From Candidatus Uhrbacteria bacterium (GTDB lineage: Bacteria; Patescibacteriota; Patescibacteriia; GWA2-47-26), in contig JACPJN010000003.1 of the NCBI GenBank assembly GCA_016187515.1, forward strand, positions 1-43,236: DNA of 43,236 nt. The letters are read 5' to 3'. The translations under genes were made by a program, and so were the position numbers. The first letter of the stretch is position 1; each line of letters begins with the position of its first letter. Shown piece by piece: positions 7,380-42,029 of the stretch. The notes below the pieces were generated by a model. That model worked only from the letters and a program-made list of their open reading frames with translations. It had not been told where the DNA came from and did no database searches.

Positions 7380-7499
7380 GCCACAGACCATAGGCAAACC
7401 AGTGTGTAAGTCCTATGCAGGCGATCCATGGGTGTGGGTTTCATAACCCCTCCCATCCTCCCCTTATCTTAAGGGGAGGGGAGTGTGGATGTCTGTGGC
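7380..7499 (+). ncRNA. Putative L10(L12)4-binding ribosomal protein leader
   Basis: Long-range 9-bp closing stem GCCACAGAC(7380-7388)/GTCTGTGGC(7491-7499); internal hairpin CATAGG/CCTATG. Located between the promoter and rplJ. Confidence 0.5.
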
Positions 7500-7547
7500 A
7501 TAACCACAGCTTATTTATTTTTATGCCCGGTAGTAGAATTTCGACGT

Positions 7548-8078
7548 ATGCCTAAAACAAAAGCTCAAAAAGAGCAGACCCTTCAAGAATTTACCGAACG
7601 GCTGGGGAAGATGAAAGGGATGGTGCTCGTGGATTACAAAGGACTCAAGGTTAAGGATGCCCAGAAAATCCGGGAGGCCTCTTGGGGCGAGGGGATTGAT
7701 TATGAAGTGGTGAAAAAGACCTTGCTTAAATTGGCCCTCAAGAATAAAGGCCTGGAAAACGCGCTTGATCCCCAGGCCTTGGAAGGAAACATTTCAACGG
7801 TGGTGGGCTATCAGGATGAGGTGGAAACCGCGAAGTTTGCCGCGAAGTTTGCCAAGGAGATTGAGGCGATTAAGATTCTGGGCGGACTCTTCGAGGGTAA
7901 GTATATTTCCGCCAGTCAAGTAAAAGCGCTTGCCGCGCTGCCAAGTCGGGTCGAACTTTTGGCACGCTTGGTGGGCACGCTTAACGCTCCGATTTCCGGA
8001 TTGGTGAATGTCTTGGCGGGAAATCTGCGCGGATTGGTGCGGGTGTTAGATGCGGTTAGAGAAAGTAAATCAAGCTAA
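7548..8078 (+). CDS. rplJ: Ribosomal protein L10
   Basis: MPKTKAQKEQTLQEFTERLGKMKGMVLVDYKGLKVKDAQKIREASWGEGIDYEVVKKTLLKLAL; preferred start 7548. Confidence 0.93.
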   Translation: MPKTKAQKEQTLQEFTERLGKMKGMVLVDYKGLKVKDAQKIREASWGEGIDYEVVKKTLLKLALKNKGLENALDPQALEGNISTVVGYQDEVETAKFAAKFAKEIEAIKILGGLFEGKYISASQVKALAALPSRVELLARLVGTLNAPISGLVNVLAGNLRGLVRVLDAVRESKSS

Positions 8079-8079
8079 C

Positions 8080-8172
8080 AAGTAAATCAGGTAAATCAGG
8101 TAAATCAGGTAAATCAGGTAAATTGCGAGCTTGATTTACTTGTCTTGCTTGCCTCGCCTGATTTACCACAAC
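8080..8172. repeat. Period-9 (GTAAATCAG) palindromic array, family B copy 1
   Basis: GTAAATCAG repeated tandemly, then CTTGATTTA|CTTGTCTTG|CTTGCCTCG|CCTGATTTA. Confidence 0.8.
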
Positions 8173-8177
8173 AATCT

Positions 8178-8594
8178 ATGTCCGATGAACAAAAAATCGT
8201 GGAGGTGCCTGAAAAATTCAAGGGCCTTGTAGGTGAGATTGAGAAAATGTCCGTGCTTGACCTTTCCGAGCTCGTCAAGGTGCTGGAGGATAAATTTGGC
8301 GTATCCGCCGCCGCGCCCATGATGGCGATGGCGGCAGCGCCTGGCGCAGGAGCTGCTGGTACGGCACCGGCCGCCGAAGAGCAAACCACCTTTAACGTGG
8401 AGCTTACGGATTCCGGATCAAATAAGATCGGGGTAATTAAAGCCCTGCGCGAAATCACCCAGCTTGGTCTTAAAGAAGCCAAGGATTTGGTGGACACCGC
8501 GCCCAAGATGGTAAAAGAAGGCGTCGGCAAAGCCGAAGCCGAGACCATGAAGAAGAAAATTGAGGCCGCCGGCGGAAAAGCGACCTTAAAATAA
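8178..8594 (+). CDS. rplL: Ribosomal protein L7/L12
   Basis: [22 protein letters not shown]...[56 protein letters not shown]. Confidence 0.96.
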
Positions 8595-8608
8595 GAGTTC
8601 CAGTATTC

Positions 8609-8635
8609 AAAAAGCCCTCTCCGGAGGGCTTTTGG
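8609..8635 (+). terminator. Terminator after rplL (may be bidirectional)
   Basis: aaaaagccctctccggagggctttt. Confidence 0.7.
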
Positions 8636-8650
8636 GTATTAGAGGGGGGA

Positions 8651-10633
8651 TTATAAATGTGATAAAGGAATTGAGAAAATGTCCGTGCCACTCGACATAT
8701 ACGCGGTTTTTACCGGCTCATCAATTTTAAAGTCCTTAAGATCGGTAAAGCTCGGGCTGGTATATTGGGTCTTAAGCAGCCCGTCTTTTTTGGCAAAGAC
8801 CGCCAGGCGTTTGGTGGATGGTTCAAGGATGTAAAGATAGGAGGAGTTTTCATGGGTCCAAATTTTAGCGGCGCCGGAAAGCGGCGGATCAATATTTTTG
8901 AGCGCGAAACTAACCCGGGCGCCTTTGCGAAACTCCAGGACATTGCCCGTGCCCTCCAGTACATATACAGATCCGTCAACCGCAAGGGCCACTCCGTCGC
9001 GCACAGCAGTCCCATCTTTGATCCAGCTTGCCCCCGCGTCAAAGCCGCTGTCTTTAGGTTCATGTTTTAGAATTTGATTTTGCTCGGGGACCAGAGTATA
9101 CAAGCGTTTTCCGTAGCGCGCGCGCAGCGGAGACCCTTCACCCAGGCGAAGCGCGGAGCGCAGCGGTTCGCTCACGGTCTGCGGTGACTCAATCGTAATC
9201 AGGTGGCGCAGGGCGGCTTTGATCGGCTCAATCGCGCCGTTTAACTCTTCAATAGTGGCGCGCGGCAAAGAAAGATCAAAGCGGCGCAGCGGGCGTATGC
9301 CCAATTCCCGCAGCCGTTCTTTCTGAAAGGCGGTTAAAGAATTGATGCGCAGCGTGACCTCGTCAATTTTCGCCTGCGCGCCGTCTTCGTCGCCATAGAT
9401 TGCCGCGGCGCTGCCCTCATTAAGCAAGGTGCGAATCGCATCTACTTCGCTTTGAAGGGCGTTTTTGAATTGCCGGGTACGCGCTTTTCCCAGCCCCAGA
9501 AACACGCTTTGCGTGAAAACGAAGAAGACGAGCAGGGTCAGCAAGAATAACACTTTACTTAACCGCGGAAGCGCGTTGAACCGTGCGATTAGCTGTTCCA
9601 AATTTAAAAGGGATAAAGCGGGAATTTTTTTTAAGCCCTTAAAAGGGGAAACGGGCGGAGGGATAGTCCGCTTTAACGCGGAAAATTTGTTATGAAAGGA
9701 GCGGGCGAATCGCGAAGAATAGCGCAATAGCGGGGGGAGGGTCGGCGTTTTATCTGGGGTACCCTCCGGCGCGGTTTTTTCCGCGGTGTCCTTTGTTTTT
9801 AGCGCGGAGAGGCCGGTTTTTACGCGATCAATTTTTTCAAAAAGTTTTTGTGCGGAGCGCCTGAACTGATTGACTAAAGGGCGCATTAAGGGCGGCGAGA
9901 GCAATTCTTCAGTTTTTGCCTCGGTATCCAGCAGTCGGGCGATGGATACTTCCGTAGTATTGGCGCTGACGGGCAGTTTTACTTTGGTCTCCAAAAGTAT
10001 GGCCTTGAGCGCGCCGCTGGTACCGCGATTACCCCAGATATGCTCCAGATAAGTTATTTTTGGGCCGGTGGAGCCGGCAAAGGTGAGTTGTTTGAGTTCA
10101 TCGGATTTAAAAAGCGTGCCCATCCGTTTGGGAATAAACAGCAAATGGGATCGCGGGGTCAGTACTCCGGAGTGAAAGGTATCAAAATGGAACGGGTGGC
10201 CGCTCCCGCTGGCCGCAATATTGATGATGGAGGAGGGACTGATCTGCAGCGCGAGTATTTCGCCGACGGTCGCGAAAAGTACGCGGGTATTGATCAGCAC
10301 TCCGATGGCTCCATGGATAGGCAATTCTTCCCGCGCCGCTCCGCGGAGCCGTTCTTCGAAGTTGATTAGTTTTTTTTCAAAGAATCCATCGAGGAGCGCG
10401 GGGTCTCTGGGGATGTATTCGAACGCGCCAAAAAGTTTAAGGGCAAACTCAATCAGTTCACTGACGTGTTCTTGAGTGGAGGGCGGGAGTTGATTTAATT
10501 CCGGCTCGGGGCACCCGAGCAGCGCGAAACACTGTGTTTCTGAAGATTCTCGACCGCGCCGTACCGCGGTCACCCAAGGTAAATAGGGTTTCCCGGAAGG
10601 GGTCGTTTCGATGCGAATGGAGAGTTTATGCAT
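8651..10633 (-). CDS. 660-aa protein with PP2C-like N-terminal region, TM segment and C-terminal beta-rich region
   Basis: Long ORF with central TM LSKVLFLLTLLVFFVFTQSVFLGL and C-terminal WIKDGTAVRDGVALAVDGSVYVLEGTGNVLEF propeller-like segments. Confidence 0.75.
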   Translation of the reverse strand: MHKLSIRIETTPSGKPYLPWVTAVRRGRESSETQCFALLGCPEPELNQLPPSTQEHVSELIEFALKLFGAFEYIPRDPALLDGFFEKKLINFEERLRGAAREELPIHGAIGVLINTRVLFATVGEILALQISPSSIINIAASGSGHPFHFDTFHSGVLTPRSHLLFIPKRMGTLFKSDELKQLTFAGSTGPKITYLEHIWGNRGTSGALKAILLETKVKLPVSANTTEVSIARLLDTEAKTEELLSPPLMRPLVNQFRRSAQKLFEKIDRVKTGLSALKTKDTAEKTAPEGTPDKTPTLPPLLRYSSRFARSFHNKFSALKRTIPPPVSPFKGLKKIPALSLLNLEQLIARFNALPRLSKVLFLLTLLVFFVFTQSVFLGLGKARTRQFKNALQSEVDAIRTLLNEGSAAAIYGDEDGAQAKIDEVTLRINSLTAFQKERLRELGIRPLRRFDLSLPRATIEELNGAIEPIKAALRHLITIESPQTVSEPLRSALRLGEGSPLRARYGKRLYTLVPEQNQILKHEPKDSGFDAGASWIKDGTAVRDGVALAVDGSVYVLEGTGNVLEFRKGARVSFALKNIDPPLSGAAKIWTHENSSYLYILEPSTKRLAVFAKKDGLLKTQYTSPSFTDLKDFKIDEPVKTAYMSSGTDIFSIPLSHL

Positions 10634-10729
10634 ATTCAGGCATTAGCCGGTTCTTGCTAGATCCGCCCAGATAGTATATCATATCATTGAGTGCGAATAT
10701 TGCAAATGTCAAGGACCCGTATGCGCAAA

Positions 10730-11344
10730 ACAGTATCGCTTGAACAAATTTTTGGTTCAAAGATCAGAGTGCGTTTACTTAAGCTTTTTTTGGGACATCC
10801 CCAGGATTCTTTCTACGTGCGGGAGATTACCCGCGCGACTCGTTCGCATATTCACTCGGTGCGGCGGGAATTGTCCAATCTTTGCAAGGTTGGACTGATC
10901 CATATACATGACGATTTAAAAAGTGAGCTGCCGCAATTGGGCGGAACGAAGAGAAAATTTTACGCAACCAATCAGGAATGCGTAATTTTTAACGAGCTGC
11001 GAGCGCTGCTCGTAAAAGGACAGCTCTTTCTTCAAGAAGAACTGGCCCGGCAGTTTTCCAAGCTTGGTTCAGTCAAGTATCTCGCGCTGACCGGATTTTT
11101 CGTTGATCTGCAGGGTTCGCCTACCGACCTTTTAGCGGTTGGACGGGTTCCCAAAAACCATTGCCAGGAGTTGATTTCCCAGTTTGAAGAGGAATTCGGC
11201 CGCACGATAAATTATACCGTTTTGCCGCTCAAAGAATTTATTGAACGCAAGGAAATGATGGATCGCTTTCTTTATAATTTTCTGGAGAGCAAAAAGGTCG
11301 TGCTAATTGACAAGCTACCCAATACGGCACGGATGGGGTTATGA
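10730..11344 (+). CDS. Winged-helix transcriptional regulator-like protein
   Basis: LEQIFGSKIRVRLLKLFLGHPQDSFYVREITRATRSHIHSVRRELSNLCKVGLI (wHTH). The start is uncertain; candidates lie between 10691 and 10730. Confidence 0.7.
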   Translation, partial: TVSLEQIFGSKIRVRLLKLFLGHPQDSFYVREITRATRSHIHSVRRELSNLCKVGLIHIHDDLKSELPQLGGTKRKFYATNQECVIFNELRALLVKGQLFLQEELARQFSKLGSVKYLALTGFFVDLQGSPTDLLAVGRVPKNHCQELISQFEEEFGRTINYTVLPLKEFIERKEMMDRFLYNFLESKKVVLIDKLPNTARMGL

Positions 11345-11682
11345 GGAAAAGAATTAAGAATGAAGAATTGAGAATGAAGGAGTTGTCTATTCAGGTAGAT
11401 GGCGAGACAGCGTCAGTGCGATATGGGCGCAAAAAAACAATCGTGCAGCTTAAAAAACGCCCCCTTCTAAGGGGAATTGCGGAGGTGGTGGATAACGCAC
11501 CGAGAATTAGCAGTATCGCAGTTAGAATTGCGAGTGCGACCTTTAGCGGCACGCGGCAGGTAATTGCGACCGTCAATACGCTGGCCCGGGGACTCGGAAT
11601 AAAAGTAAACGGGAAAAAACAGATGAACGCAACTTATAGCGCCGAGCCGAATATTACAAAGCCGCCGTTTCGCGCAAAGTAG
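11341..11682 (+). CDS. Hypothetical protein, partly repeat-derived; doubtful
   Basis: Overlaps the upstream stop (ATGA). N-terminus KRIKNEELRMKE and KKRPLLRGIAEVV look like translated genomic repeats. Confidence 0.35.
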   Translation: MRKRIKNEELRMKELSIQVDGETASVRYGRKKTIVQLKKRPLLRGIAEVVDNAPRISSIAVRIASATFSGTRQVIATVNTLARGLGIKVNGKKQMNATYSAEPNITKPPFRAK

Positions 11683-28046: not shown

Positions 28047-28141
28047 CGGAGATGCGTAGCGAAGCGGAGCCCCGTACCGAACTTGTTCTGGTGCGGGGGC
28101 GGAACATGTGGGGAAATTGTTGAGGAGATAATTTGAAAATT

Positions 28142-28230
28142 CCTCCCCTTAGGGTAAGGGGAGGTTAGGAGGGGTTACGAACCATTCATAACCCTCCCCA
28201 GCCCTCCCTTATCTTAAGGGAGGGAGAGAT
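28142..28230. repeat. G/C-rich palindromic repeat (cctccccttagggtaaggggagg family), tandem inverted copies
   Basis: cctccccttagggtaaggggaggttaggaggggttac...cataaccctccccagccctcccttatcttaagggaggg; related blocks at 7442, 12505, 20637 and 23607. Confidence 0.75.
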
Positions 28231-28329
28231 TGTAGGCGCGGGGTTGTTCCCCGCGTTTTTATTTGTTTTAATGTCGGGGCTGATTCGCATTATCTTGCCC
28301 ATTTTCAAACCCTGTGTTAGCATAGAATC

Positions 28330-28448
28330 GGAAGCAATTCCAACCAAAAGGCGAAGCATAGCGGAGTCCTCCGAGCATGCGGGTGACCCAAACCCGCAGC
28401 CCGCAAGGCGAAGGTATGCCCGTCGAACCAAGAGGAGGAAGAGAGGCC
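28330..28448 (+). promoter_or_regulatory. Conserved structured leader L1 of lipoprotein cassette 1
   Basis: cggaagcaattcc...gcgaagcatagcggagtcctccgagcatgcgggtgacccaaacccgcagcccgcaaggcgaaggtatgcccgtcgaaccaagaggaggaagagaggcc; near-identical to L2 at 30538-30660. Confidence 0.6.
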
Positions 28449-30257
28449 ATGCGAAACAAAGTGAAGTCCGCCGAGTATGCCGGTGCCCCAGACCCGAGCC
28501 CGAAGGGCGGAGGCATGCGCGGCGGTAACAGAGGCGGGCGTACCTTGAAAATCTACCTGGTGGCAAGCGCGTTGTGCGCCGCGCTTACCGGTTGCGGCAA
28601 GCATGACACTCAACCATCCGAATCCGACCAATCCGAGCATGCCTATACAACGGCCGAGATTGACCAGGCGTTGGATAACGCGCGGAAAGCGTTTGAAGCG
28701 CAATATGGGCGCAGTGTTGATGTCACGGTGTGGGAGGATCGCGAGTACTTTCCGCTACTGCTGGATTTGGTGATCCAAAATCTCGCCAGCGATGCTGATT
28801 CTGCCGCGCTTATTCGCCGCCACACGCATCCGAAATACGACGGGGACACCGAATATTGCGGTCCGGGCGCCGGGTTTTGGAATCCGGATCCCGGAGATTG
28901 TCTCAATCATATCTGCGCGATTCACGACGCGTGCTACGAGCAGACGAATCCGGAACTGTCTTTTTGGTGCGTTTGGAGCATTGAAACTGACAAGTGTGAT
29001 CAGGTATTTTTCAAGGAGATTGAGCAATGCCCGAGCCCGGGAGAATGTCGTTCCGGCATTGAGCAGGCCTGCAACTTCTACGCGATCTGGGGGATGGCGC
29101 GCGACCTGAAAAGGATGCAAGGGACCAAGGAAGTACAAGCCCAAGAGGGGTGCGGACTTGAAGCCGAGGCAGAGAGTGAGGCCGAAGGTGAAAGTGAAGT
29201 GGAAGGGGAGGGCGAGGCGGAGAGTGAAGCGGAACATGATGTATGGATGGCGATTTCCACCACTGACGCACCTGCGGCGCGCTACTCCCACACCGCCATC
29301 TGGACCGGGAGTGAAATGGTGGTCTGGGGAGGAGCGGGTGATAGTTCGGGTCTCAACACTGGCGGGCAGTATGATCCGGTGACCAACCGTTGGACCCCGA
29401 CTTACACTGCTGGTGCGCCTGCGGCGCGCGCCCACCACACCGCCATCTGGACCGGGAGTGAAATGCTGGTGTGGGGAGGATACAATAGTTGGACTCTCAA
29501 CACTGGCGGGCAGTATGATCCGGTGACCGGCCGTTGGACCGCGATTCCCACCACTGGCGCGCCTGCGGCGCGCATCTACCACACCGCCGTCTGGACCGGG
29601 AGTGAAATGCTGGTGTGGGGAGGAGCGGATGATAGGTTGCCCTTTCCCCTCAACACTGGCGGGCAGTATGATCCGGTGACCGGCCGTTGGACCGCGATTC
29701 CCGCGCCTGGGGCGCGCTCATTACACACCGCGATCTGGACCGGGAGTGAAATGATAGTGTGGGGAGGAAGGGAGATTGTTATTTTCAACACCGGCGAGCG
29801 ATATGATCCGATCACCAATATCTGGACTGCGATCTCCACCGCCTTTGGCGCGCCCGCGGCGCGCTACTTACACACCGCGATCTGGACCGGGAGTGAAATG
29901 ATAGTGTGGGGAGGAACGGATGATAGCGGTCGTTTCCACACCGGCGATCGATATGATCCGATCACCAATACCTGGACTGCGATTTCCACCGCTGGCGCGC
30001 CTGCAGGGCGCTACTACCACACTGCCATCTGGACCGGCAGTGAAATGCTGGTGTGGGGAGGAGAGGGTGAGGGTGGTAGTATTCTCAACACCGGCGGGCA
30101 GTATGATCCGGCAACCAATACTTGGACATCGACCTCCACTGCTGACGCGCCTGAGGCGCGCACCTACCACACTGCCATCTGGACCGGGAGTGAAATGCTG
30201 GTGTGGGGAGGATATGCTGGCCCGACTTTCAACACCGGCGGGCGGTACCGGCCCTAG
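28449..30257 (+). CDS. Lipoprotein with PLA2-like domain, E/S/A/G-rich linker and 7-repeat kelch-like propeller
   Basis: IYLVASALCAALTGCGK lipobox; YCGPGAGFWNPDPGDCLNHICAIHDACY (HDxCY); EAEAESEAEGESEVEGEGEAESEAEHD; 7x HTAIWTGSEMxVWGG...NTGGQYDP.T..WT. Start could also be 28515 or TTG 28545. Confidence 0.85.
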   Translation: MRNKVKSAEYAGAPDPSPKGGGMRGGNRGGRTLKIYLVASALCAALTGCGKHDTQPSESDQSEHAYTTAEIDQALDNARKAFEAQYGRSVDVTVWEDREYFPLLLDLVIQNLASDADSAALIRRHTHPKYDGDTEYCGPGAGFWNPDPGDCLNHICAIHDACYEQTNPELSFWCVWSIETDKCDQVFFKEIEQCPSPGECRSGIEQACNFYAIWGMARDLKRMQGTKEVQAQEGCGLEAEAESEAEGESEVEGEGEAESEAEHDVWMAISTTDAPAARYSHTAIWTGSEMVVWGGAGDSSGLNTGGQYDPVTNRWTPTYTAGAPAARAHHTAIWTGSEMLVWGGYNSWTLNTGGQYDPVTGRWTAIPTTGAPAARIYHTAVWTGSEMLVWGGADDRLPFPLNTGGQYDPVTGRWTAIPAPGARSLHTAIWTGSEMIVWGGREIVIFNTGERYDPITNIWTAISTAFGAPAARYLHTAIWTGSEMIVWGGTDDSGRFHTGDRYDPITNTWTAISTAGAPAGRYYHTAIWTGSEMLVWGGEGEGGSILNTGGQYDPATNTWTSTSTADAPEARTYHTAIWTGSEMLVWGGYAGPTFNTGGRYRP

Positions 30258-30522: not shown

Positions 30523-30537
30523 ATGCTATCATTGTAT

Positions 30538-30660
30538 CGGAAGCAATTCCACAACCAAAAAGGCGAAGCATAGCGGAGTCCTCCGAGCATGCGGGTGACC
30601 CAAACCCGCAGCCCGCAGGGCGAAGGTATGCCCGTCGAACCAAGAGGAGGAAGAGAGGCC
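30538..30660 (+). promoter_or_regulatory. Conserved structured leader L2 of lipoprotein cassette 2
   Basis: Near-identical to L1 up to gaggaggaagagaggcc-ATG. Confidence 0.6.
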
Positions 30661-32610
30661 ATGATCCGTACCTTGACAACCAAATTCTTGGCCATCACGG
30701 CCATGCTTACGGCAGGTTGCGAAAAATCCGAGCCGGATTCAACGCCAATCTGCCAAGATGGTGATTACGACGAAGCAGATGTGCGCGAAGCCGTGGAGGA
30801 CGCGGTGGACGCGTTGAAAAAAAGGGGGGAGACGATTGACCCCTCGGTTTGGGACGACCCCGAACGTTTTGAAGCGCTGGTAGAGCAGACCACGGTGGAA
30901 ATGGGTTGCCATCTTGAGGGAAGCCCGTCAGCAGGACAGAGCGGATTTGGCGCGCGCCGCCAGGGCGGATCTCGGGAGTGCGCGGATACCGATGTCAGAG
31001 AGCGATACGAAGACGACAAGATTTATTGCGGTCCGGGAGTCATTGAACGGGACGATTGCGAGTGGCGCTGGCCCGGCGATTGCCTGAACCGTGTCTGCCA
31101 TACCCACGATCTTTGCTATGATCGGACCAGAATTCCGGAGCTTTCTGTCGCCGGCCGTGATCTGGATATTTGCCTTTGGAGCGATGTGACCGCCGAGTGC
31201 GATCTGGAGTTTTTTGAAGGAGAGGGCGATTGTCTTTCCGGGTTTGATTGCGGAATCCGCTGTATGATCACCGGCGCGATTGCCGCAACGCTTCAGGCAT
31301 TGAGCAGAGTGCCGATTACCAGTGGTATCTCTGTAAGCGATGCATGTGTCGTATGCGCCGAAACCGACGCGTGCGAGGTTGATGAAAAAGGGGACGGGAT
31401 GGAGGGGGAGAGCGAGGCGGAAGCCGAATCCGAGGCGGAGAGTGAAGCGGAGGGAGAAGGTGAAGCCGAGGCGGAATCAGAAGCAGAATCGGAAGCAGAG
31501 AGTGAAATGCTAGAGATATGCAATGCCCTTGATGATAATGGTGATGGGAGAATAGATGAAGATTGTTGTAAGGAACCGGGCAGTTGGATCGCGGGACAAA
31601 TTGCAACAGTTGACCGTGGGATAAGCCCCTCGTTCAGCTTTGCGTTTTCCGGTTATCCCAGATTGATTTATCCTAATGCAGGCGTAGATGCAGAATTTGT
31701 ATATACCCATCGGCAGGATCCTGCGGAATGGACCTCAGAAGTTGTGGGTTCTGGTTCTGCCTCAACGTTGAGAGGATACCGGATTGAATCAGATGAAGAT
31801 GGGGGTATCCATATTGCTTGGAAGGTGGCAAATTTGTCTCCTATAAATTATTTGCGGTCACCTGGAGAAGGAAGACCCTGGAGTGAGGAAACTATTACGC
31901 CATCGGGGGGAAGTTCAATTTACTTGAGTGACCTTGCCGTCACTTCAGAAGGTGTTCCGGCTGTAACCTATCGTAATTCATCTACCAACTTTCTGTATTA
32001 TGCAGAAAGGACTGAAGCGGGCGCTTGGGTATCGAACACAATCTCCTTGAATGCTTTGTCGGGTGGGGCCTTAACATTTGATATATCTGACAACCCGCAT
32101 GTTGCCTACTACGTACCGGAGGACGGAGACGGCAGTCTGTATTATAGGACCAGAAATTCCATGGGGGAATGGGCCAGTTCTTTGAGAGTGGCAAGTTTCG
32201 GCGATCTCCGCGGCCCCATAGACATAAAAACGTATGGGGATATCGACGTTCACATTCTCTTTTTCGATCAGCGCCCCGTTTTTGGAGGAGATGCCAATAG
32301 ATTTTATCATGTGGAAGGAAACAGCGGAGGGGCTTGGTCCACGACAGAACTTTCGGACTGGTCAGGACATGTTTGTTCGGTCAGTGCGAGGGGCTCCCTT
32401 GCATTAGATGGTGAAAATGGTGTTCATATAGTACAATCAATGTGCGGGAACATCGATTACGCGACACGCAATCCTGCAGGCGTATGGAGCGAGGAAGATT
32501 TTGAAAGTAGTGGATCGTATGCAGATATTGCAGTTAATCCGGTTACCGGGACACCCGCGATCGTCTATTTTGACGAAGGAGCCATCTGGTATGCTTACCA
32601 GTGTGAATAA
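30661..32610 (+). CDS. Lipoprotein with PLA2-like domain, E/S/A/G-rich linker, MopE-like motif and C-terminal beta-propeller-like domain
   Basis: MIRTLTTKFLAITAMLTAGCEKS lipobox; YCGPGVIERDDCEWRWPGDCLNRVCHTHDLCYD; EGESEAEAESEAESEAEGEGEAEAESEAE; EICNALDDNGDGRIDEDCC. Confidence 0.85.
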   Translation: MIRTLTTKFLAITAMLTAGCEKSEPDSTPICQDGDYDEADVREAVEDAVDALKKRGETIDPSVWDDPERFEALVEQTTVEMGCHLEGSPSAGQSGFGARRQGGSRECADTDVRERYEDDKIYCGPGVIERDDCEWRWPGDCLNRVCHTHDLCYDRTRIPELSVAGRDLDICLWSDVTAECDLEFFEGEGDCLSGFDCGIRCMITGAIAATLQALSRVPITSGISVSDACVVCAETDACEVDEKGDGMEGESEAEAESEAESEAEGEGEAEAESEAESEAESEMLEICNALDDNGDGRIDEDCCKEPGSWIAGQIATVDRGISPSFSFAFSGYPRLIYPNAGVDAEFVYTHRQDPAEWTSEVVGSGSASTLRGYRIESDEDGGIHIAWKVANLSPINYLRSPGEGRPWSEETITPSGGSSIYLSDLAVTSEGVPAVTYRNSSTNFLYYAERTEAGAWVSNTISLNALSGGALTFDISDNPHVAYYVPEDGDGSLYYRTRNSMGEWASSLRVASFGDLRGPIDIKTYGDIDVHILFFDQRPVFGGDANRFYHVEGNSGGAWSTTELSDWSGHVCSVSARGSLALDGENGVHIVQSMCGNIDYATRNPAGVWSEEDFESSGSYADIAVNPVTGTPAIVYFDEGAIWYAYQCE

Positions 32611-32664
32611 AATGGCCACAGTGCCAGGTATCGTGTTGTGTTAGCGACGATAGCAAAAGAGTGG

Positions 32665-32683
32665 CGCTCGTTACCGGCCCTAG
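32665..32683 (+). pseudogene. Fossil kelch C-terminus (ARYRP*) downstream of the stop of cassette 2
   Basis: gcgctcgttaccggccctag = ARYRP* outside any CDS, followed by the same ttcgttcttcaac...ccgccgaggtt tail as the other cassettes. Confidence 0.6.
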
Positions 32684-32699
32684 TTCGTTCGTTCTTCAA

Positions 32700-32745
32700 C
32701 TCAACCGCCGAGGTTCCCATTCGGGGAACCCCGGCCTTTTTTTAT
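32700..32745 (+). terminator. Terminator of cassette 2
   Basis: ccgaggttcccattcggggaaccccggccttttttt. Confidence 0.75.
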
Positions 32746-32812
32746 TCTGCTTTCCGAAATAATTTTGACAGGCCTATCTATCCCTTTGGATTATAAATGC
32801 CCATTCTACAAA

Positions 32813-33284: not shown

Positions 33285-33357
33285 GTGTGGATTGTATGGC
33301 AAAAGCAAAATACGGTCTCTTTTTTAGAACTTGACACCATACGCCGTTATTGTTATT
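33285..33357 (+). promoter_or_regulatory. Duplicated promoter block (copy at 34938)
   Basis: gtgtggattgtatggcaaaagcaaaatacggtctcttttttagaacttgacac; TTGACA -35 in both copies. Confidence 0.55.
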
Positions 33358-33383: not shown

Positions 33384-33484
33384 GGAGGCGTAGCGTAGCG
33401 GAGTCCTCCGAGCCTGCGGGTGCCCCAGCGCCGCAGCCCGAAGGGCGAAGGTATGTGCGTCGAACCCAGAGGAGGAAAAAAGCC
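33384..33484 (+). promoter_or_regulatory. Conserved structured leader L3 of lipoprotein cassette 3
   Basis: aagggaggcgtagcgtagcggagtcctccgagcctgcgggtgccccagcgccgcagcccgaagggcgaaggtatgtgcgtcgaacccagaggaggaaaaaagcc. Confidence 0.6.
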
Positions 33485-34684
33485 ATGCGTACCTTGACAA
33501 TGACCGCGTTTTTGCTGGCGTTCTTGACCGCCTGCGGAGGCGGCGACTCAACCACCGCCCCACAGGAAGGTGAGGATGAAGCCGAGGCCGAAGGCGAGGA
33601 AGACGAAGCCGAGACGGAGAGTGAAGTGGAACATGATGTATGGGTGGCGACTTCCACTGAAGGCGCACCGACAGCTCGCCGGCGCCACACCGCCATCTGG
33701 ACCGGGAGTGAAATGATAGTGTGGGGAGGATTGGATAATGGTCGGAATCTGATCAACACCGGCGGGCGGTATGATCCGGAAACCAATACTTGGACCACGA
33801 CTTCTACCTCTGGCGCGCCTGCGGCGCGCAGCGACTACACTGCCATCTGGACTGGGTCGGAAATGATTGTGTGGGGAGGACAAGAGGGATCCAGCCAACT
33901 TAACACCGGCGGGCGGTATGATCCCGTGACCAACTCCTGGACTGCGACCTCCACTGCTGGCGCGCCTGCGGCGCGCTGGTTCCACACCGCCATCTGGACC
34001 GGGTCTGAAATGATGGTGTGGGGCGGATGGAATGAATGGCGTGATTTCATCAACACCGGCGGTCAGTATGATCCGGAGACCAACACTTGGACTGCGACCT
34101 CCACCGCTGGCGCGCCTACCGTGCGTCGTGTACACACCGCGATCTGGACCGGGTCGGAAATGATTGTGTGGGGCGGAGACAGTGATGGTAGTGCGCTTCT
34201 CAACACCGGCGGGCGGTATGATCCGGAAACCAATACTTGGACCACGACTTCTACCTCTGGCGCCCCTGCGGCACGCGAAATCCACACCGCGGTCTGGACC
34301 GGAGAGGAGATGATTGTGTGGGGAGGATGGGATAATGATTGGAATCCGTTCAACACCGGCGGGCGGTATGATCCGGAAACCAATACTTGGACCGAGACCT
34401 CCACCACTGGCGCGCCAGCGACGCGCGTCGGCCACACCGCCATCTGGACCGGCTCCGAGATGATTGTGTGGGGAGGAGAGGCTAGATGGGATGATAGTGC
34501 TTTCAACACCGGCGGGCGGTATGATCCGCTAACCAATACTTGGACTGCGACCTCCACCGCTGGCGCGCCAGCGGCGCGCAGCGACCACACCGTCATCTGG
34601 ACTGGAGATGAGATGATTATGTGGGGAGGGGGAGGATGGGATGAAGATGATCACCTTGACACCGGCGGGCGGTATAGACCCTAG
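33485..34684 (+). CDS. Lipoprotein with acidic linker and 7-repeat kelch-like propeller
   Basis: MRTLTMTAFLLAFLTACGGGDS lipobox; EGEDEAEAEGEEDEAETESEVEHDVW; 7x HTAIWTGSEMIVWGG...NTGGRYDPETNTWT. Confidence 0.88.
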   Translation: MRTLTMTAFLLAFLTACGGGDSTTAPQEGEDEAEAEGEEDEAETESEVEHDVWVATSTEGAPTARRRHTAIWTGSEMIVWGGLDNGRNLINTGGRYDPETNTWTTTSTSGAPAARSDYTAIWTGSEMIVWGGQEGSSQLNTGGRYDPVTNSWTATSTAGAPAARWFHTAIWTGSEMMVWGGWNEWRDFINTGGQYDPETNTWTATSTAGAPTVRRVHTAIWTGSEMIVWGGDSDGSALLNTGGRYDPETNTWTTTSTSGAPAAREIHTAVWTGEEMIVWGGWDNDWNPFNTGGRYDPETNTWTETSTTGAPATRVGHTAIWTGSEMIVWGGEARWDDSAFNTGGRYDPLTNTWTATSTAGAPAARSDHTVIWTGDEMIMWGGGGWDEDDHLDTGGRYRP

Positions 34685-34747: not shown

Positions 34748-34900
34748 TTTTCCGAGAATTTTAAGTCCGGGGCGCAGAAATTCTGTCGGAAAATTAACCC
34801 GCCAAGTATGCGGGTGCCCCAGGTCCGCAGCGCAGCAAAGGTATGCTCGTCGGCGGGAGCGGCGGGTAACATCTAAAGTGTGCTTCCAAGTCGTCCCGTG
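34747..34900 (+). repeat. Conserved structured spacer L4 (same core as the leaders)
   Basis: ttttccgagaattttaagtccggggcgcagaaattctgtcggaaaattaacccgccaagtatgcgggtgccccaggtccgcagcgcagcaaaggtatgctcgtcggcgggagcggcgggtaac; near-identical copy at 35487. Confidence 0.7.
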
Positions 34901-35063
34901 TTTGGCTCGATCGCGCTAAATGCAAGACGTTTAGGAAATGTGGATTGTATGGCAAAAGCAAAATACGGTCTCTTTTTTAGAACTTGACACAGCACGCTGC
35001 ACTACTAGATGATACACTTGACAAGCTCGCTCGAATATGGTAAGTTGAGTTTAGGAGGAAAAC

Positions 35064-35423
35064 ATGGAAAAACTGACCTGCCAGGCGGCACTTGCCGCAC
35101 TGTTGTTTACCGCTTCCTGCAGAAGCGGAAGCCCGCCCGGAGAGGGTGAGGATGGTGTTGATGGCGAGGCCGAGGCGAGAGCCGAAGCCGAGTCCGATGG
35201 CGACGCGATCCGGACCGGCTTCCAGGGGGTCGTGTGTAACGGAGTGGCTTGCGACTCTGCGTTTTTCAGCGACGAGTGGTACGATCCGGCCACGAACTCC
35301 TGGACTGCGACTTCCGCTGGCCGCTGGATCACCGCCATCTGGACCGGCTCGGAAATGATCGTGTGGAGCGGAAGCGGAGACGATGTCTCTGTCCTCAACA
35401 CCGGCGCTCGTTACCGGCCGTAG
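35064..35423 (+). CDS. Minimal lipoprotein carrying a single degenerate kelch unit
   Basis: LTCQAALAALLFTASCRSGSPPGEGEDGVDGEAEARAEAESDG...WYDPATNSWTATSAGRWITAIWTGSEMIVWSGSGDDVSVLNTGARYRP*. Confidence 0.75.
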   Translation: MEKLTCQAALAALLFTASCRSGSPPGEGEDGVDGEAEARAEAESDGDAIRTGFQGVVCNGVACDSAFFSDEWYDPATNSWTATSAGRWITAIWTGSEMIVWSGSGDDVSVLNTGARYRP

Positions 35424-35486: not shown

Positions 35487-35638
35487 TTTCCGAGAATTTT
35501 AAGTCCGGGGCGCAGAAATTCTGTCGGAAAATTAACCTGCCAAGTATGCGGGTGCCCCAGGTCCGCAGCGCAGCAAAGGTATGCTCGTCGGCGGGAGCGG
35601 CGGGTAACATCTAAAGTGTGATTTCAAGTCGTCCCGTC
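35487..35638 (+). repeat. Conserved structured spacer L5
   Basis: Near-identical to 34747-34900. Confidence 0.7.
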
Positions 35639-35718
35639 TTACGGTCTATTCTTTAAAACTTGACACAATCTCTGGCACTCTGCTAGATTTAAAGTGGCTA
35701 ACCACCGAGGAGGAAGCC

Positions 35719-37566
35719 ATGACCCTTGAAAATCTGCGATTGAAAATGTTCGGTCTGCTGCCAGCTGTTAGTTTTGCAGCGCTGCTGTATGCCGGGTGCG
35801 ATCGTTCTGATATGAGTTCTTCATCAGGCGGAAGAGAAGGGGAAGCAGAAGGAGAGCGGGACCGGATGGGAGAAAGGCATGAAGATGGCGGGGCAAATGA
35901 CGGCTGTATTCCTGCAACGTATTTTCTGGACAACGATGGAGACGGCTATGGCGCTCCCATGCAGAATTTGGAAGGTTGCATGAAGCCGAAAGGCTATGCC
36001 ACAAATGCAGATGATTGCGATGATGGAAATGAAAATATTTATCCCGGCGCAGAAGAACTCTGCGATGGGCTGGATAATGACTGCAATAGAGAAATTGATG
36101 ATGGTTTAACCGCACCTTCGCAGGAATGTTTTGCCGGCAGAGGGGAATGCCGGCGTGCCGGCCTGGAATACCAGGTTTGCGAAGGCGCAGCCGGATGGAG
36201 TACGGATTATAGAAATTGCGATGCGTCTGCCGGAGAAGCAGCAGCAGAATTGTGTGATGGATTGGATAATGACTGTGATGAAACGAATGACAATAATCTT
36301 ACCAGGCCATCAAGAGAATGTTATATTTCTGTAGCTGGGTGCAGGCGTCCGGGAATGGAGTACCGGGCCTGTGAAGGCGCAGCCGGATGGAGCGCCCAAT
36401 ACCAAAACTGTGAGGCCGATGCGCTTTCGGAAGAAGTATGTGATGCATTGGATAATGATTGCGATGGGTTTATAGATAATCATTGCGCCAGAGAGATCTC
36501 TGCCGGATATCGTGCAACCTGCATGACTTTAGGCGATACTTCTGTCCGCTGCTGGGGGTACAATGGGCTAGGACAGCTCGGAGACGGCACGAACACCGAA
36601 CGCCATACACCCACTCCCGTCTCCGGGCTAAGAGGTGCTGTTGGGATTTCTCTTGGACAACATCACGCCTGCGCTCTATTGGAAGAGGGTTCTGTCCGCT
36701 GCTGGGGCGCGAACTCGTACGGCCAACTGGGAGATGGCACAAGCACCGATAGCTCAGTGGTGCCCATAGCGGCGGTTTCCGGAGTGGGCAGCGCGGTTCA
36801 GCTTTCTGCCGGATTTCATCACACCTGCGCGGTTTTGGAAAACGGTTCTGCCCGATGCTGGGGAAAGAATGAGAACGGCCAACTGGGCAACGGCACAAAT
36901 AATGATGGTGGTCCTACCCCCCCGGTGACTGTTTCCGGACTGGCAGGCATCATTCAAATCTCCGGTGGAGAGAATCACACCTGCGCGGTATCAGCAGATG
37001 GCTCTGCCTATTGTTGGGGGCGTGACCAGTACGGCCGACTGGGTACTGGCTCCAGCGACTATCCGGACCCGCACACTCCCGCATTGATTTCCACTCTTAG
37101 TGATGTTGCTCAAATCAGCGCTGGAATGTGGCACACTTGCGCAGTATCAGCAGACGGCTCTGCCTATTGCTGGGGTGCGAACCCGTACGGCCAACTGGGC
37201 AATGGCTCAGCCTACCTATTCAGACCAAGTGACTCCACGCCAGGATTGGTTTCCGAGCTGGAAGATGCCTCCCAAATCACTGCCGGAGATGAACATACCT
37301 GCGCTTTATTGGGAGACGGCTCTGCCCGCTGCTGGGGGTACAACATAGCTGGCCGGCTCGGCGACGGGACGGTCATAGACCGCTATACACCCGTCGCGGT
37401 TTTTGGACTTAGTGATGCTGTCAGGCTTTCTACCGGAAGTGCCCACACCTGCGCAGTTTTAGAAGACGGTTCTGCCCGCTGCTGGGGGAACAACTCGTAC
37501 GGCCAACTGGGAGATGGCACGACGCAAAGTCGAACTACCCCCGTGGAAGTGGTATGGACGGAATAA
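35719..37566 (+). CDS. Lipoprotein with MopE-like metal-binding repeats and 7-repeat RCC1-like propeller
   Basis: LLPAVSFAALLYAGCDRS lipobox; ELCDGLDNDCNREIDDGL, ELCDGLDNDCDETNDNNL, EVCDALDNDCDGFIDNHC; 7x SARCWGxNxxGQLGDGT. Confidence 0.9.
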   Translation: MTLENLRLKMFGLLPAVSFAALLYAGCDRSDMSSSSGGREGEAEGERDRMGERHEDGGANDGCIPATYFLDNDGDGYGAPMQNLEGCMKPKGYATNADDCDDGNENIYPGAEELCDGLDNDCNREIDDGLTAPSQECFAGRGECRRAGLEYQVCEGAAGWSTDYRNCDASAGEAAAELCDGLDNDCDETNDNNLTRPSRECYISVAGCRRPGMEYRACEGAAGWSAQYQNCEADALSEEVCDALDNDCDGFIDNHCAREISAGYRATCMTLGDTSVRCWGYNGLGQLGDGTNTERHTPTPVSGLRGAVGISLGQHHACALLEEGSVRCWGANSYGQLGDGTSTDSSVVPIAAVSGVGSAVQLSAGFHHTCAVLENGSARCWGKNENGQLGNGTNNDGGPTPPVTVSGLAGIIQISGGENHTCAVSADGSAYCWGRDQYGRLGTGSSDYPDPHTPALISTLSDVAQISAGMWHTCAVSADGSAYCWGANPYGQLGNGSAYLFRPSDSTPGLVSELEDASQITAGDEHTCALLGDGSARCWGYNIAGRLGDGTVIDRYTPVAVFGLSDAVRLSTGSAHTCAVLEDGSARCWGNNSYGQLGDGTTQSRTTPVEVVWTE

Positions 37567-37618: not shown

Positions 37619-37642
37619 ACCGGCGCTCGCTACCGTCCGTAG
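37619..37642 (+). pseudogene. Fossil kelch C-terminus (TGARYRP*) downstream of the RCC1 gene stop
   Basis: accggcgctcgctaccgtccgtag = TGARYRP* about 50 bp after the RCC1 stop codon, followed by the cassette tail and terminator. Confidence 0.65.
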
Positions 37643-37663
37643 TTCTTTCGATCTCAACCCAAC

Positions 37664-37696
37664 CGCCGAGGTTTTCCCAACCTCGGCTTTTTTTAT
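37664..37696 (+). terminator. Terminator of cassette 5
   Basis: ccgaggttttcccaacctcggcttttttta. Confidence 0.8.
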
Positions 37697-38174
37697 TAAG
37701 GAGTTAAGTAAAATAATAAAAAAGCCCCGCATTTGGATGGGGGCGGGGAAAAGGGGGGGTGCCGGGATTTTAACAAAGGCGATTGAATTTCAGGTATTGA
37801 CAGATCTTGCCTATATATTATAGGATAAAAGTAGGATGCGAATAAGCTATGAATAAATGTATGAACGGCAGCATTTTTACCAATTCAATGAAATTGGAAT
37901 ACCGCGAGCATCGGATTATTAAAGCGGGTATATTTGATATTCCGCGGGTTGCTGGATAAGATGGTTGGTGTGTAAAGATCTGACAAAGTAAGTAGGCATA
38001 AATAAAATCCCGCGGGAAGTCCGTGGGATTTTCGCTAAATTTGGAGATTGCAGGGTATGATTCTGGAATCGTTCAGGATTATAGCCAGCACTCTCTTCAC
38101 AAAATTGGAGGAGTGCGTGCACTTTGACAATTAAGGGCTTTACAAAGCCAAGAAATCAGTAAAGGAGGACGAGC

Positions 38175-41100
38175 ATGCATCCTAAGCTCAATTCAGCATA
38201 CCAAAGCGCGTTTGCGATACTGGTTTTTGGATACATCGGTCAACCGCGTTCGGCCGAAGCATGTTCCGTAGTGTTTCCGAGCGAAGTGCCGACTGGAGCG
38301 AGTTTTGACATAGAAGTTCACCACACTCTCCCAAGCGTGAGTTGGCACGGACAATTTGTTGCCCGCGCATCAGTAGGGGTTCCAACACGCACCGGCGATC
38401 GTCAATGCATTGACGATCGTTATGTCGGACCGTATTGTTCCGTGATTAATGTCCGCGCTCCTGCAACGGCGGGTTTGTTCGCCATTGAGGTGGAATGCGG
38501 AGTGGAAGATTGTGATGGTAGCGGTACAAGGTGGCTTGATACCGAGTGGGCGACGATCGAAGCCGGAGACAGATGGCGCGGGTCAAGTTCGCGCACCTGT
38601 CCGTCAACCGGGCGTGAGTGTTCCTGTTCAGATTGTGATCCGCACTCCGACCTGGATTACGATGCCTACAATATCGTTTCCGGTCGCGCCCGCGCCGGCG
38701 AGGAGTTCCGCTTTGAACTCCGGATCTGCAATGTCGGCGACGGTCTGTGCGAGATTGATACGGTTGATCTTAACCGTGACAGCGGGCCGAGTGTTTCGTG
38801 GGGCGACGACGAAGAGGCCAGCGATGAGGATTTGGGTCCGGGCGATTGCTCCTGGGTTGGCGATCCGTTTTGCCTAACCGCGAATTCAGACGGTCGTCTC
38901 TGGATTGAGATTGACGTTGAAAGCGATACTGACGGGGATTGGTACCGCGATGTAGATTCGTTCTACATTGACATTGAAAGATCTGATCCCTGTGCCGGCG
39001 TGGTATGTTCCGATATCTGCAGCGGCTCCTCGCTCATCACCAGTCGCACGTGTTCTGGCGGAGCATGCGGCGGCGGAGTAGGTACAAATTGCGCTTGGGG
39101 TTGTTCTACTTCCGGTGGCGCGCATTGCAATCCGGATCCGTGTGCCGGACGCGTGTGCTCCGGCGGTTGTCCGAATACCTGTAGTGGTTCTACTCTCATC
39201 ACCGGGCGCGTTTGCAATTGTGGGTCCTGTACCGGTGGTACGGGTACAAGCTGTGCTTGGGGATGTACAGGTACGGGCGCCAATACGCGGTGCCGTCCCA
39301 ATCCTTGTGCCGGGGTGGTTTGCCCCGCAGGATGTACGGGAAATACGCGGCGCTCTAACGGAAGGCCGGTGGTAAGGAGCGACACTAGCTGCGAGTGCGT
39401 GTACGATACTCTGGATTGCGCTACCCTCAACAATGTGGGTGCGAGCAGTCAGTATTGTTGCGGCGAAAATGCCTGTTCTCGCGAGTTGGAAACGAGCTAC
39501 GCTTGCTCGGCCGGTTTGTGCCAGGTTGACCAAACTCGGTGGGTGAACGAGCGCGTGGAGTTTGCCTGCGAGAACATGGACACTGCGCCGGAAACATCCT
39601 TGTACTGTTCCGGGAATGACGTGCGCGGAGTAGATCGTTTCATGGATTACTCGTGTAATCCGGAAACGATTACGTGTGTAGGGGAACCAACCGAAGCAGA
39701 CGACCGATTGGTTGAGCGCTGTCCGTACGGCTGCGCTGATTCCGGTGGCGCGCATTGTAACCCAAACCCATGCGCCGGAGTAACCTGCCCCGCAGGTTGT
39801 GTAGCCGGCAATGTGCGCCGGTATAACGGTACGCCAGTGGTCAGCGGCGGATCCTGCCGGTGTGATTACGAATCGCAGGACTGCGATGATCTGGATAATG
39901 CCGGGGTACGAGAGGAGTATTGCTCCGGCAGTGATGTTTGGTCGCATTACTGGTATACCGACTATGGATGCAGTGGTAGCGGATCGTGCGCCATCTCAAG
40001 TCAATCCTGGTCAGACAGCCGGCTGGAGGAAACTTGTGCAGGTCGCGGCTGTTTAGACCGTGGCGGCGCGCATTGTAACCGTCCCCCTACGCTGGTCGTG
40101 CGGCGAGTGGGAGAGGAGGAACCGTTGGCGGATGGATCGGTGATTGAGATGACAACCGGCGATCTGGTTGAACTTGAAACCTCGGCCAGTTTTGACCCTG
40201 ACGGAAATGCACTGACTTTTCGTTGGTTTGTGGATGAAGAGGATGTGACACCGGATGAAGCGGAGCGTTTCTCCTGGCAGACATTTTCTCCAGGTCAATT
40301 CCGGCTTCGCGTTCGGGTTACCGATGGGTTGACCGAAGTTGATCAGGAGTTTGATCTAGTTGCATATCTCGACGATATTGCGGCTCATTGGGATGGGTCA
40401 CGCAATATACGCACGTTTGAGATTACGCTACCTTCAAACGGCACGATCAATTACGGGTTTTATACACCCAGCGGACTGGATGACTTCTCAATAACCCTTG
40501 ATTTGGATGGTCTGTGGTCGCAATTCCCATTTGACGATGTCGGGATGTGGGTTGATCCTCCAGATCAAGTTCCTTGGTTCGGACATGTCAACGACTGGCC
40601 ATTGTTTGACCGGGTGCAATTCCGGCGTCAAGATACCCCGGACGGGAATTGGGGCCTAGAGGTGGTTACCGGCTTCACGCTGTCGCATAATGCCACTCTG
40701 GAGTTCGCATACGACTGGCCATACCCGGATCCGCCCGGACACTTTTTATCCTCGTGTGCATGGGGATTGGTATCCGGTAAATGCGCCGACGACCTGGATT
40801 GCATCGATTGTGCGTTGGGTGGAGTGGCCCTGGTGGTTTTGGTTCCGATAGATGAGGCGCAAGACGCGATCAACTTCGTGGTCAACGCGGTCGTGGCCTC
40901 CTGGAACACCAGCGAGGGATTGGCGGCGTACATACTCTATCGCGATCCGGATGCGTTTGATGACGCCGTGCGATATTGGATCGCGAGCGGGTTGTCGGTC
41001 GTTAACTTCGTGGTCGTTATTGATGTTGGGTTTGTTCGTTATCTTGATAACATTCCGCAGTCCGCAGAATGGTTGCGGCGGTTCGGTTTCCTTACCGACG

Positions 41101-42029
41101 ATATGGTTCGCCGATTTGGGGATGGTCTTCCGGAGATCGTTGGCAATGATCGCGGTCTTCGGAGAGTGTTTAATCGGCGCGCGGCCACGATTCCGGAAGG
41201 AATGCCGGATTGGGAAAAGGACAGCTTCATCGCACTCGTTGATGAGGTTGATCCGCTTTGGACGCGCGCTGTGCGAGACGGGAAAGATACGCTTTCTTCG
41301 GGAGAGCGCGGTATCTTCCGAGAGCGTTTTACCCAGCTTCATGCGCGCTCCCGCGGCTTGCAGCCGATTCGGATGGGGAGCGCGAGCCCAACTGGTCCGC
41401 TTACCAATCAGCGCATCACGCACATCGGCGGGCGTTCTCTCGGTACTGATATTGATTATGCACTCCAGCACGAAGATGGGACGCTTTACCTTTTTTTCGT
41501 TGCGGGTGATAACGCTGTAGCGGGAGGACGCGCCCACAATCTCGGGGAGATCGAGCAGGTGCAGAGATTCTTTAGCGCAAACTCTGACCTTGCCACGCAG
41601 TTTCCGAACCGGGTGTATGTAAGCTGGGCAGGCACGCGCCGGGCTTCGTTGGGTACGGTGGAAACTTTTGTGGAAGTAACGAGTCGCGCAGTAGAGGAGA
41701 ATGAGGAAAAACCGGATTGGCTAGATCCGTCCGATCCTCGGCTTGTTCCGGTGGGAAGCGTGGATGGCGGAGCCGCGGTATGCAGTCGTATTTGTTTCTC
41801 CGGTTCGGAGCAGGAAAGCGACTGCGGCAATTACTTCGGAGCGTGCGAAAATCTTCCGGGCAAGGTGTATTCGTGCGAGATGGTCGCGTGTGATGTGGGA
41901 CCGCCGCCGATGCCTGACGGGTGTGATTGTCGCGCGGGTCAGAATTCCGGAAACGATGTTCCTTTCGTGTTCTTTGTGTCTACGCTGGGCGTATTGTGCT
42001 GGCGAATGAGGCGTAGGCGCATTCGTTAG
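38175..42029 (+). CDS. 1284-aa secreted Cys-rich protein with PKD-like domain and C-terminal TM plus Arg-rich sorting-like tail
   Basis: SD aaaggagg; N-terminal hydrophobic signal; repeated NPCAGVxCPAGC/CAWGC; PKD-like TGDLVELETSASFDPDGNALTFRWFVD; C-terminus CDCRAGQNSGNDVPFVFFVSTLGVLCWRMRRRRIR. Confidence 0.85.
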   Translation: MHPKLNSAYQSAFAILVFGYIGQPRSAEACSVVFPSEVPTGASFDIEVHHTLPSVSWHGQFVARASVGVPTRTGDRQCIDDRYVGPYCSVINVRAPATAGLFAIEVECGVEDCDGSGTRWLDTEWATIEAGDRWRGSSSRTCPSTGRECSCSDCDPHSDLDYDAYNIVSGRARAGEEFRFELRICNVGDGLCEIDTVDLNRDSGPSVSWGDDEEASDEDLGPGDCSWVGDPFCLTANSDGRLWIEIDVESDTDGDWYRDVDSFYIDIERSDPCAGVVCSDICSGSSLITSRTCSGGACGGGVGTNCAWGCSTSGGAHCNPDPCAGRVCSGGCPNTCSGSTLITGRVCNCGSCTGGTGTSCAWGCTGTGANTRCRPNPCAGVVCPAGCTGNTRRSNGRPVVRSDTSCECVYDTLDCATLNNVGASSQYCCGENACSRELETSYACSAGLCQVDQTRWVNERVEFACENMDTAPETSLYCSGNDVRGVDRFMDYSCNPETITCVGEPTEADDRLVERCPYGCADSGGAHCNPNPCAGVTCPAGCVAGNVRRYNGTPVVSGGSCRCDYESQDCDDLDNAGVREEYCSGSDVWSHYWYTDYGCSGSGSCAISSQSWSDSRLEETCAGRGCLDRGGAHCNRPPTLVVRRVGEEEPLADGSVIEMTTGDLVELETSASFDPDGNALTFRWFVDEEDVTPDEAERFSWQTFSPGQFRLRVRVTDGLTEVDQEFDLVAYLDDIAAHWDGSRNIRTFEITLPSNGTINYGFYTPSGLDDFSITLDLDGLWSQFPFDDVGMWVDPPDQVPWFGHVNDWPLFDRVQFRRQDTPDGNWGLEVVTGFTLSHNATLEFAYDWPYPDPPGHFLSSCAWGLVSGKCADDLDCIDCALGGVALVVLVPIDEAQDAINFVVNAVVASWNTSEGLAAYILYRDPDAFDDAVRYWIASGLSVVNFVVVIDVGFVRYLDNIPQSAEWLRRFGFLTDDMVRRFGDGLPEIVGNDRGLRRVFNRRAATIPEGMPDWEKDSFIALVDEVDPLWTRAVRDGKDTLSSGERGIFRERFTQLHARSRGLQPIRMGSASPTGPLTNQRITHIGGRSLGTDIDYALQHEDGTLYLFFVAGDNAVAGGRAHNLGEIEQVQRFFSANSDLATQFPNRVYVSWAGTRRASLGTVETFVEVTSRAVEENEEKPDWLDPSDPRLVPVGSVDGGAAVCSRICFSGSEQESDCGNYFGACENLPGKVYSCEMVACDVGPPPMPDGCDCRAGQNSGNDVPFVFFVSTLGVLCWRMRRRRIR

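Follow-up and report, generated by a model that had tools for sequence, protein, structure and literature searches.

The locus analysed here raises the question of why codons that spell the end of a kelch protein lie behind the stop codon of a gene that has no kelch body. The window, that is, the whole stretch of DNA analysed, is a complete contig of 43,236 b from a 1.2 Mb genome, and it carries five tandem lipoprotein-like genes (c1 to c5) between 28.3 and 37.7 kb (Table 1). The genes c1, c3 and c4, together with kelch genes on the contigs C4 and C6 of the same genome, are members of the kelch-repeat lipoproteins with Glu-rich linkers (PF24681, PF01344), whereas c2 and c5 are devoid of a kelch body and keep only the last kelch codons as a relic. 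The c2 protein has no kelch match in Pfam and does not belong to the kelch propellers. The intact architecture is represented by its paralog c1, which ends in frame with NTGGRYRP* (asterisks mark stops) and whose start codon is uncertain (28450 or 28514).

Table 1. Features of the lipoprotein gene array and of the kelch relics in the window.
Feature	Position	Strand	Description	Basis
c1	28450..30257	+	Lipoprotein gene: PLA2-like N-part, Glu-rich linker, kelch propeller	ORF, Pfam kelch 1.5e-50
c2 5' header	30524..30663	+	Promoter-proximal/5' UTR block	94% over 140 nt to c1 28315-28451; 106 nt at 99%
c2	30661..32610	+	Lipoprotein gene: PLA2-like N-part, Glu-rich linker, MopE-like stretch, non-kelch C-terminal domain	
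c2 Glu-rich linker	31402-31509	+		
Putative replaced/inserted c2 block	31474..32662	+	Body, own stop, 52 nt of own 3' sequence	GC change point
c2 stop	32608-32610	+	TAA	ORF
c2 kelch C-terminal relic	32663..32683	+	GGC GCT CGT TAC CGG CCC TAG = GARYRP*	
Kelch-type 3' UTR and intrinsic terminator (c2)	32684..32746	+	Hairpin 32707-32735, T run	
c3	33485..34684	+	Kelch lipoprotein gene, in-frame end DTGGRYRP*	ORF, Pfam
c4 upstream flank	34755..34911	+		First 148 nt 97% identical to c5 flank
c4	35064..35423	+	119-aa kelch lipoprotein gene, in-frame end LNTGARYRP*	ORF, Pfam
c5 upstream flank	35493..35640	+	Duplicate of c4 flank	
c5	35719..37566	+	Lipoprotein gene: MopE repeats, RCC1 propeller	ORF, Pfam
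c5 stop	37564-37566	+	TAA	
c5 kelch C-terminal relic	37619..37642	+	ACC GGC GCT CGC TAC CGT CCG TAG = TGARYRP*	
Kelch-type 3' UTR and terminator (c5)	37643..37697	+	Hairpin 37665-37687	

Between its lipoprotein leader/Glu-rich linker and its kelch end, c4 has only about 1.5 kelch repeats. It is probably too short to close a propeller alone and is perhaps a collapsed kelch gene. The PLA2-like domain (CGPG...PGDCxNxxCxxHDxCY), which Pfam matches only weakly, was observed in putative lipoproteins of this family with different partners: kelch in c1, another body in c2, and MopE plus a possible PQQ-like body in a gene of the genome G001 (L015:8077-10971).

A previous sequence-only reading of the window had claimed that ARYRP* is still spelled downstream of the c2 stop and is followed by the 3' tail and terminator of the kelch paralogs, and both claims are borne out. 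The relic begins after 52 nt beyond the c2 stop, in a frame different from that of the CDS (offset 1), and it is followed by TTCGTTCGTTCTTCAACTCAACC and then by a terminator that is 97% identical over 38 bp to the terminator of the C6 kelch gene. Alignment of this 3' flank with the paralog 3' ends, the comparison proposed in that reading, revealed a similarity to c4 and c5 that extends over about 84 nt with 76-80% identity (by blastn, 84 nt at 79.8% to c5 and 90 nt at 75.6% to c4). Local alignments extended over 76-90 columns with c3, c4 and c5 and over just the tail (32 columns) with c1, and their scores for c1, c3, c4 and c5 (42, 62, 69 and 79, respectively) were never reached in 1000 dinucleotide shuffles each, the shuffle maxima being 25-29. 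The homology starts at GGC. The 52-nt gap before this point showed no likeness to kelch bodies beyond chance, save one marginal score (22/1000), and its composition (48.1% GC) is like that of the c2 body, with 71% GC in the relic, which has just 21 nt. Upstream, the reading frame of the relic is closed by stops (KMATVPGIVLC*RR*QKSGARYRP*). Since the relic is out of the c2 frame and its own frame is stopped on the 5' side, it does not contribute to the c2 translation product.

A genome-wide search with the pattern CGNTAYNNNCCNTAG revealed 7 matches in the 1.2 Mb, which correspond to the in-frame ends of 5 kelch genes (c1, c3, c4 and one each on the contigs C4 and C6) and to 2 relics. When a stricter 21-nt pattern was applied to 384 genomes of the class, only 1 match was found in the other 383, and the backwards control gave 3 in all. 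The tail reads as kelch coding sequence, because the kelch repeats have NTGGRYDP as their internal motif, and GGRYVP*, GGRYTP* or GGRYTPP* closes the kelch genes elsewhere in this genome and those of G002, a genome of the same family. The tails of c2, c4 and c5 differ by 1, 2 and 3 changes, small numbers but all at synonymous third positions, as would be expected if their divergence preceded the loss of coding. In type, the c2 relic goes with c4 and c5 (GARYRP) and not with c1 (GGRYRP), its sister in the N-terminal half, and c2 is thus a mosaic of more than one paralog. The tail and terminator also look mosaic in themselves, with GCTCG as in c4 and c5, CCCTAGTTCGTTC as in c1 and c3, and a terminator nearest to that of the C6 kelch gene.

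The out-of-frame tail is not unique to c2. Another relic, absent from the sequence-only reading, was found 52 nt past the stop of the RCC1 gene c5 (37566), out of the c5 frame and with its own frame closed upstream by stops (G*KMER*KIPRDRGFGLTGARYRP*). No homology exists between the 52-nt gap of c2 and that of c5.

On the 5' side, c2 is homologous to c1 in the header, the N-domain (41% identity in the aligned core of the PLA2-like N-parts) and stretches of the linker, and then nothing is shared until the tail. Within the c2 CDS, the GC content changes from 57.6 to 47.8% at position 31474, inside the linker (0/500 codon shuffles), and the c1 control has no such change point (252/500); a weaker break was found in c5 between MopE and RCC1 (14/500). 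The GC evidence is restricted to this within-CDS test: with the downstream flank added, a two-breakpoint scan responded chiefly to an AT-rich intergenic stretch and did not pass the largest of 100 shuffles. The gene c5 shares with c4 about 142-148 nt of upstream sequence (97%) and the promoter block (89%), and again nothing more until the tail. At its full 157 nt, this flank repeat was seen nowhere outside the array, and a diverged core of it occurs elsewhere. From the shared upstream flanks and the shared tails, it follows that both non-kelch genes sit between kelch-type flanks. The proposal that a different C-terminal domain replaced, or was inserted into, an ancestral kelch gene is supported by the header, N-part and linker that c1 has in common with c2 and by the GC break in the c2 linker.

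Some of these upstream sequences are repeated. A palindrome-rich 106-nt header abuts the starts of c1, c2 and c3 (28346-28451, 30558-30663 and 33386-33487; 86-99% identical), a diverged second copy lies within the 5' end of the c1 ORF (28451-28541), and in G001 another copy (C5:10812-10909) stands in front of a gene for a MopE lipoprotein. No Rfam match was found for this header, which is possibly a 5' UTR element or a small repeat family. A 52-nt promoter block is 100% identical upstream of c3 (33286-33337) and c4 (34939-34990) and is shared in part by the upstream region of c5 (35640-35667).

The C-terminal body of c2 is probably a propeller of the BNR/PLL type, as suggested by weak signals: a score of 18.3 bits to Pfam BNR_4 (cut-off 27.3), an all-beta single-sequence structure prediction of low confidence (pLDDT 46.5), and a Foldseek search with this model in which the top matches were propellers (TM about 0.26). 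No solved structure matches the domain by sequence. A search for c2 orthologs or donors in 384 genomes of the class gave only two weak partial matches, the full c2 protein had no match in the GTDB contigs, and the c2 locus was not found in any other genome compared. The nearest stand-in for an in-frame ortholog is the paralog c1, in which PLA2-like N-part and linker run in frame into kelch and end with GGRYRP*. The PLA2-like domain was found by search only in the same-family genome G001, in a gene with another C-terminus and no kelch tail, so the PLA2-like N-domain does not generally come with the tail. Relatives of the c5 RCC1 propeller are common in the class (18/384 genomes); no kelch tail was found at the RCC1 loci examined, and none in either same-family genome. 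Nothing relevant was found in Rfam.

These sequence comparisons make it probable that, within a tandem array of kelch genes, different C-terminal domains, each with a stop of its own, took the place of the kelch body in c2 and c5. Both genes would occupy the former places of kelch lipoprotein genes, and recombination would have exchanged the kelch body for the probable BNR/PLL-type propeller in c2 and for MopE plus RCC1 in c5. With the incoming domain would have come its stop codon and about 50 nt of the 3' sequence native to it. What was left of the kelch gene, namely its last 6-8 codons, stop, 3' UTR and terminator, would form an untranslated relic whose terminator may still end transcription. 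In c2, the 5' joint would lie in the repetitive Glu-rich linker, the repeats of which are a plausible joint, and in c5 the old promoter and upstream flank would have been retained. The direction from kelch to the other body is suggested because the relic is kelch-coding, and at least two replacement events are indicated because the bodies, gaps and joints of c2 and c5 differ. The sample is one metagenome-type assembly, the relics hold 21-24 nt of coding sequence, and the searches returned neither a donor for the c2 or c5 body nor an orthologous locus. Against a replacement speaks that the 5' header is not specific for kelch genes, its copy in G001 preceding a MopE lipoprotein gene.

The main rival, which we regard as rather improbable, is that c2 and c5 were never kelch genes and that both acquired, downstream, the copy of a kelch 3' end (last codons and terminator) through gene conversion or unequal crossing over between terminators within the array. 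A conversion tract of this kind behind pre-existing genes would look alike, and the mosaic nature of c2 fits it, both in the tail and terminator, which resemble c4/c5, c1/c3 and the C6 kelch gene by turns, and in the c4/c5-type tail joined to a c1-type N-half. The array is, besides, rich in recently homogenised repeats (headers 99%, flanks 97%, 52-nt promoter block 100%). However, conversion needs prior homology and so presupposes a related 3' end in the recipient, and a 3' event explains neither the c4-type flanks on both sides of c5 nor the kelch-paralog N-half and the linker composition break of c2.

The equal distance of about 52 nt after two unrelated genes, with junctions within 3 nt, would also suit a functional non-coding element (RNA or recombination site) placed after genes and only secondarily used as a kelch C-terminus. 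This explanation is very unlikely, as the tail matches the motif of the internal kelch repeats, its variation falls on synonymous sites, the kelch genes on contig C4 and in G002 share the protein end but have unrelated 3' flanks, and neither an Rfam match nor a conserved fold of the tail besides the terminator was found. The region is repetitive and the genome is probably metagenome-assembled, which might favour a chance similarity or an assembly artefact; this is hardly credible, given that the shuffles gave 0/1000, that the two cases are separate and differ in body and gap, and that both alternative bodies are intact ORFs. The ARYRP codons are intact, as they would be if the tail were translated by frameshift or read-through as the true C-terminus of c2 or c5. 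The probability of this is practically nil, and such translation is contradicted by the sequence, with stops in the ARYRP frame between each CDS stop and its relic and with the relics off the CDS frame.

The proposed replacement of the kelch bodies has a known counterpart in the C-terminal displacement of Rhs genes, in which the incumbent C-terminus, displaced by incoming tips, remains downstream and the composition shows a break (Jackson et al. 2009, PMC2935791). In both systems, a conserved N-part gains a new C-terminal domain, old C-terminal sequence lies untranslated downstream and the composition breaks at the joint. Accordingly, c1 and c2 have homologous N-parts and different C-terminal domains, old C-terminal coding sequence lies downstream of the new stop in c2 and c5, and the composition of c2 breaks at the joint (31474). 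Unlike Rhs, a toxin system in which whole displaced tips are kept with fragments of core sequence, c2 and c5 carry propellers and not toxins, the old body is gone and the last 6-8 codons and the terminator alone remain. Pfam gives kelch, MopE and RCC1 but no Rhs domain, and the likeness is one of analogy only. In the mafB loci of Neisseria (described in PMC2935791), a full-length gene is followed by C-terminal fragments of another variant; the array differs in having complete paralogous genes instead of a series of spare C-termini.

Among the papers searched, none mentions kelch together with Uhrbacteria. The relic stop and terminator would settle in which direction the domains were swapped, a point that is usually ambiguous, with kelch as the first state. 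The presence of two relics in an array of five genes suggests that Patescibacteria with reduced genomes may diversify their surface lipoproteins by exchange of whole propellers behind a low-complexity linker, and kelch-end codons out of frame after a stop could serve as a search rule for further swaps. The case is clear, polarised and doubled, but with one genome and short relics it is solid and modest. A further idea, which we put forward as speculative and unlikely, is that the array is a domain-exchange locus, where constant 5' modules (promoter, header, lipoprotein leader, Glu-rich linker) and 3' modules (GARYRP end and terminator) would be recombination anchors for binding propellers repeatedly installed in surface lipoproteins. 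If so, the locus would perhaps vary what the Patescibacteria (CPR) cell attaches to, and a preferred 3' joint would account for the near-coincidence, to within 3 nt, of the starts of the two relics.

Shared 3' ends were observed again on contig C4 of this genome, where two large kelch proteins (L056:5108-6643 and 7453-11601), one with M23-like, MopE and kelch parts and the other Cys-rich with kelch, have the near-identical 3' tail TAGCTCTTTTGCAAACCCGCCACGA. Adjoining the array in the window, positions 38175-42029 encode a Cys-rich, secreted-looking protein of 1284 aa with a weak PKD match and without the kelch tail. Upstream of the array, a strong inverted repeat of C/G-rich runs is located at 28138-28225; its Rfam microRNA matches were only sub-threshold, and it is likely a MITE-like repeat.
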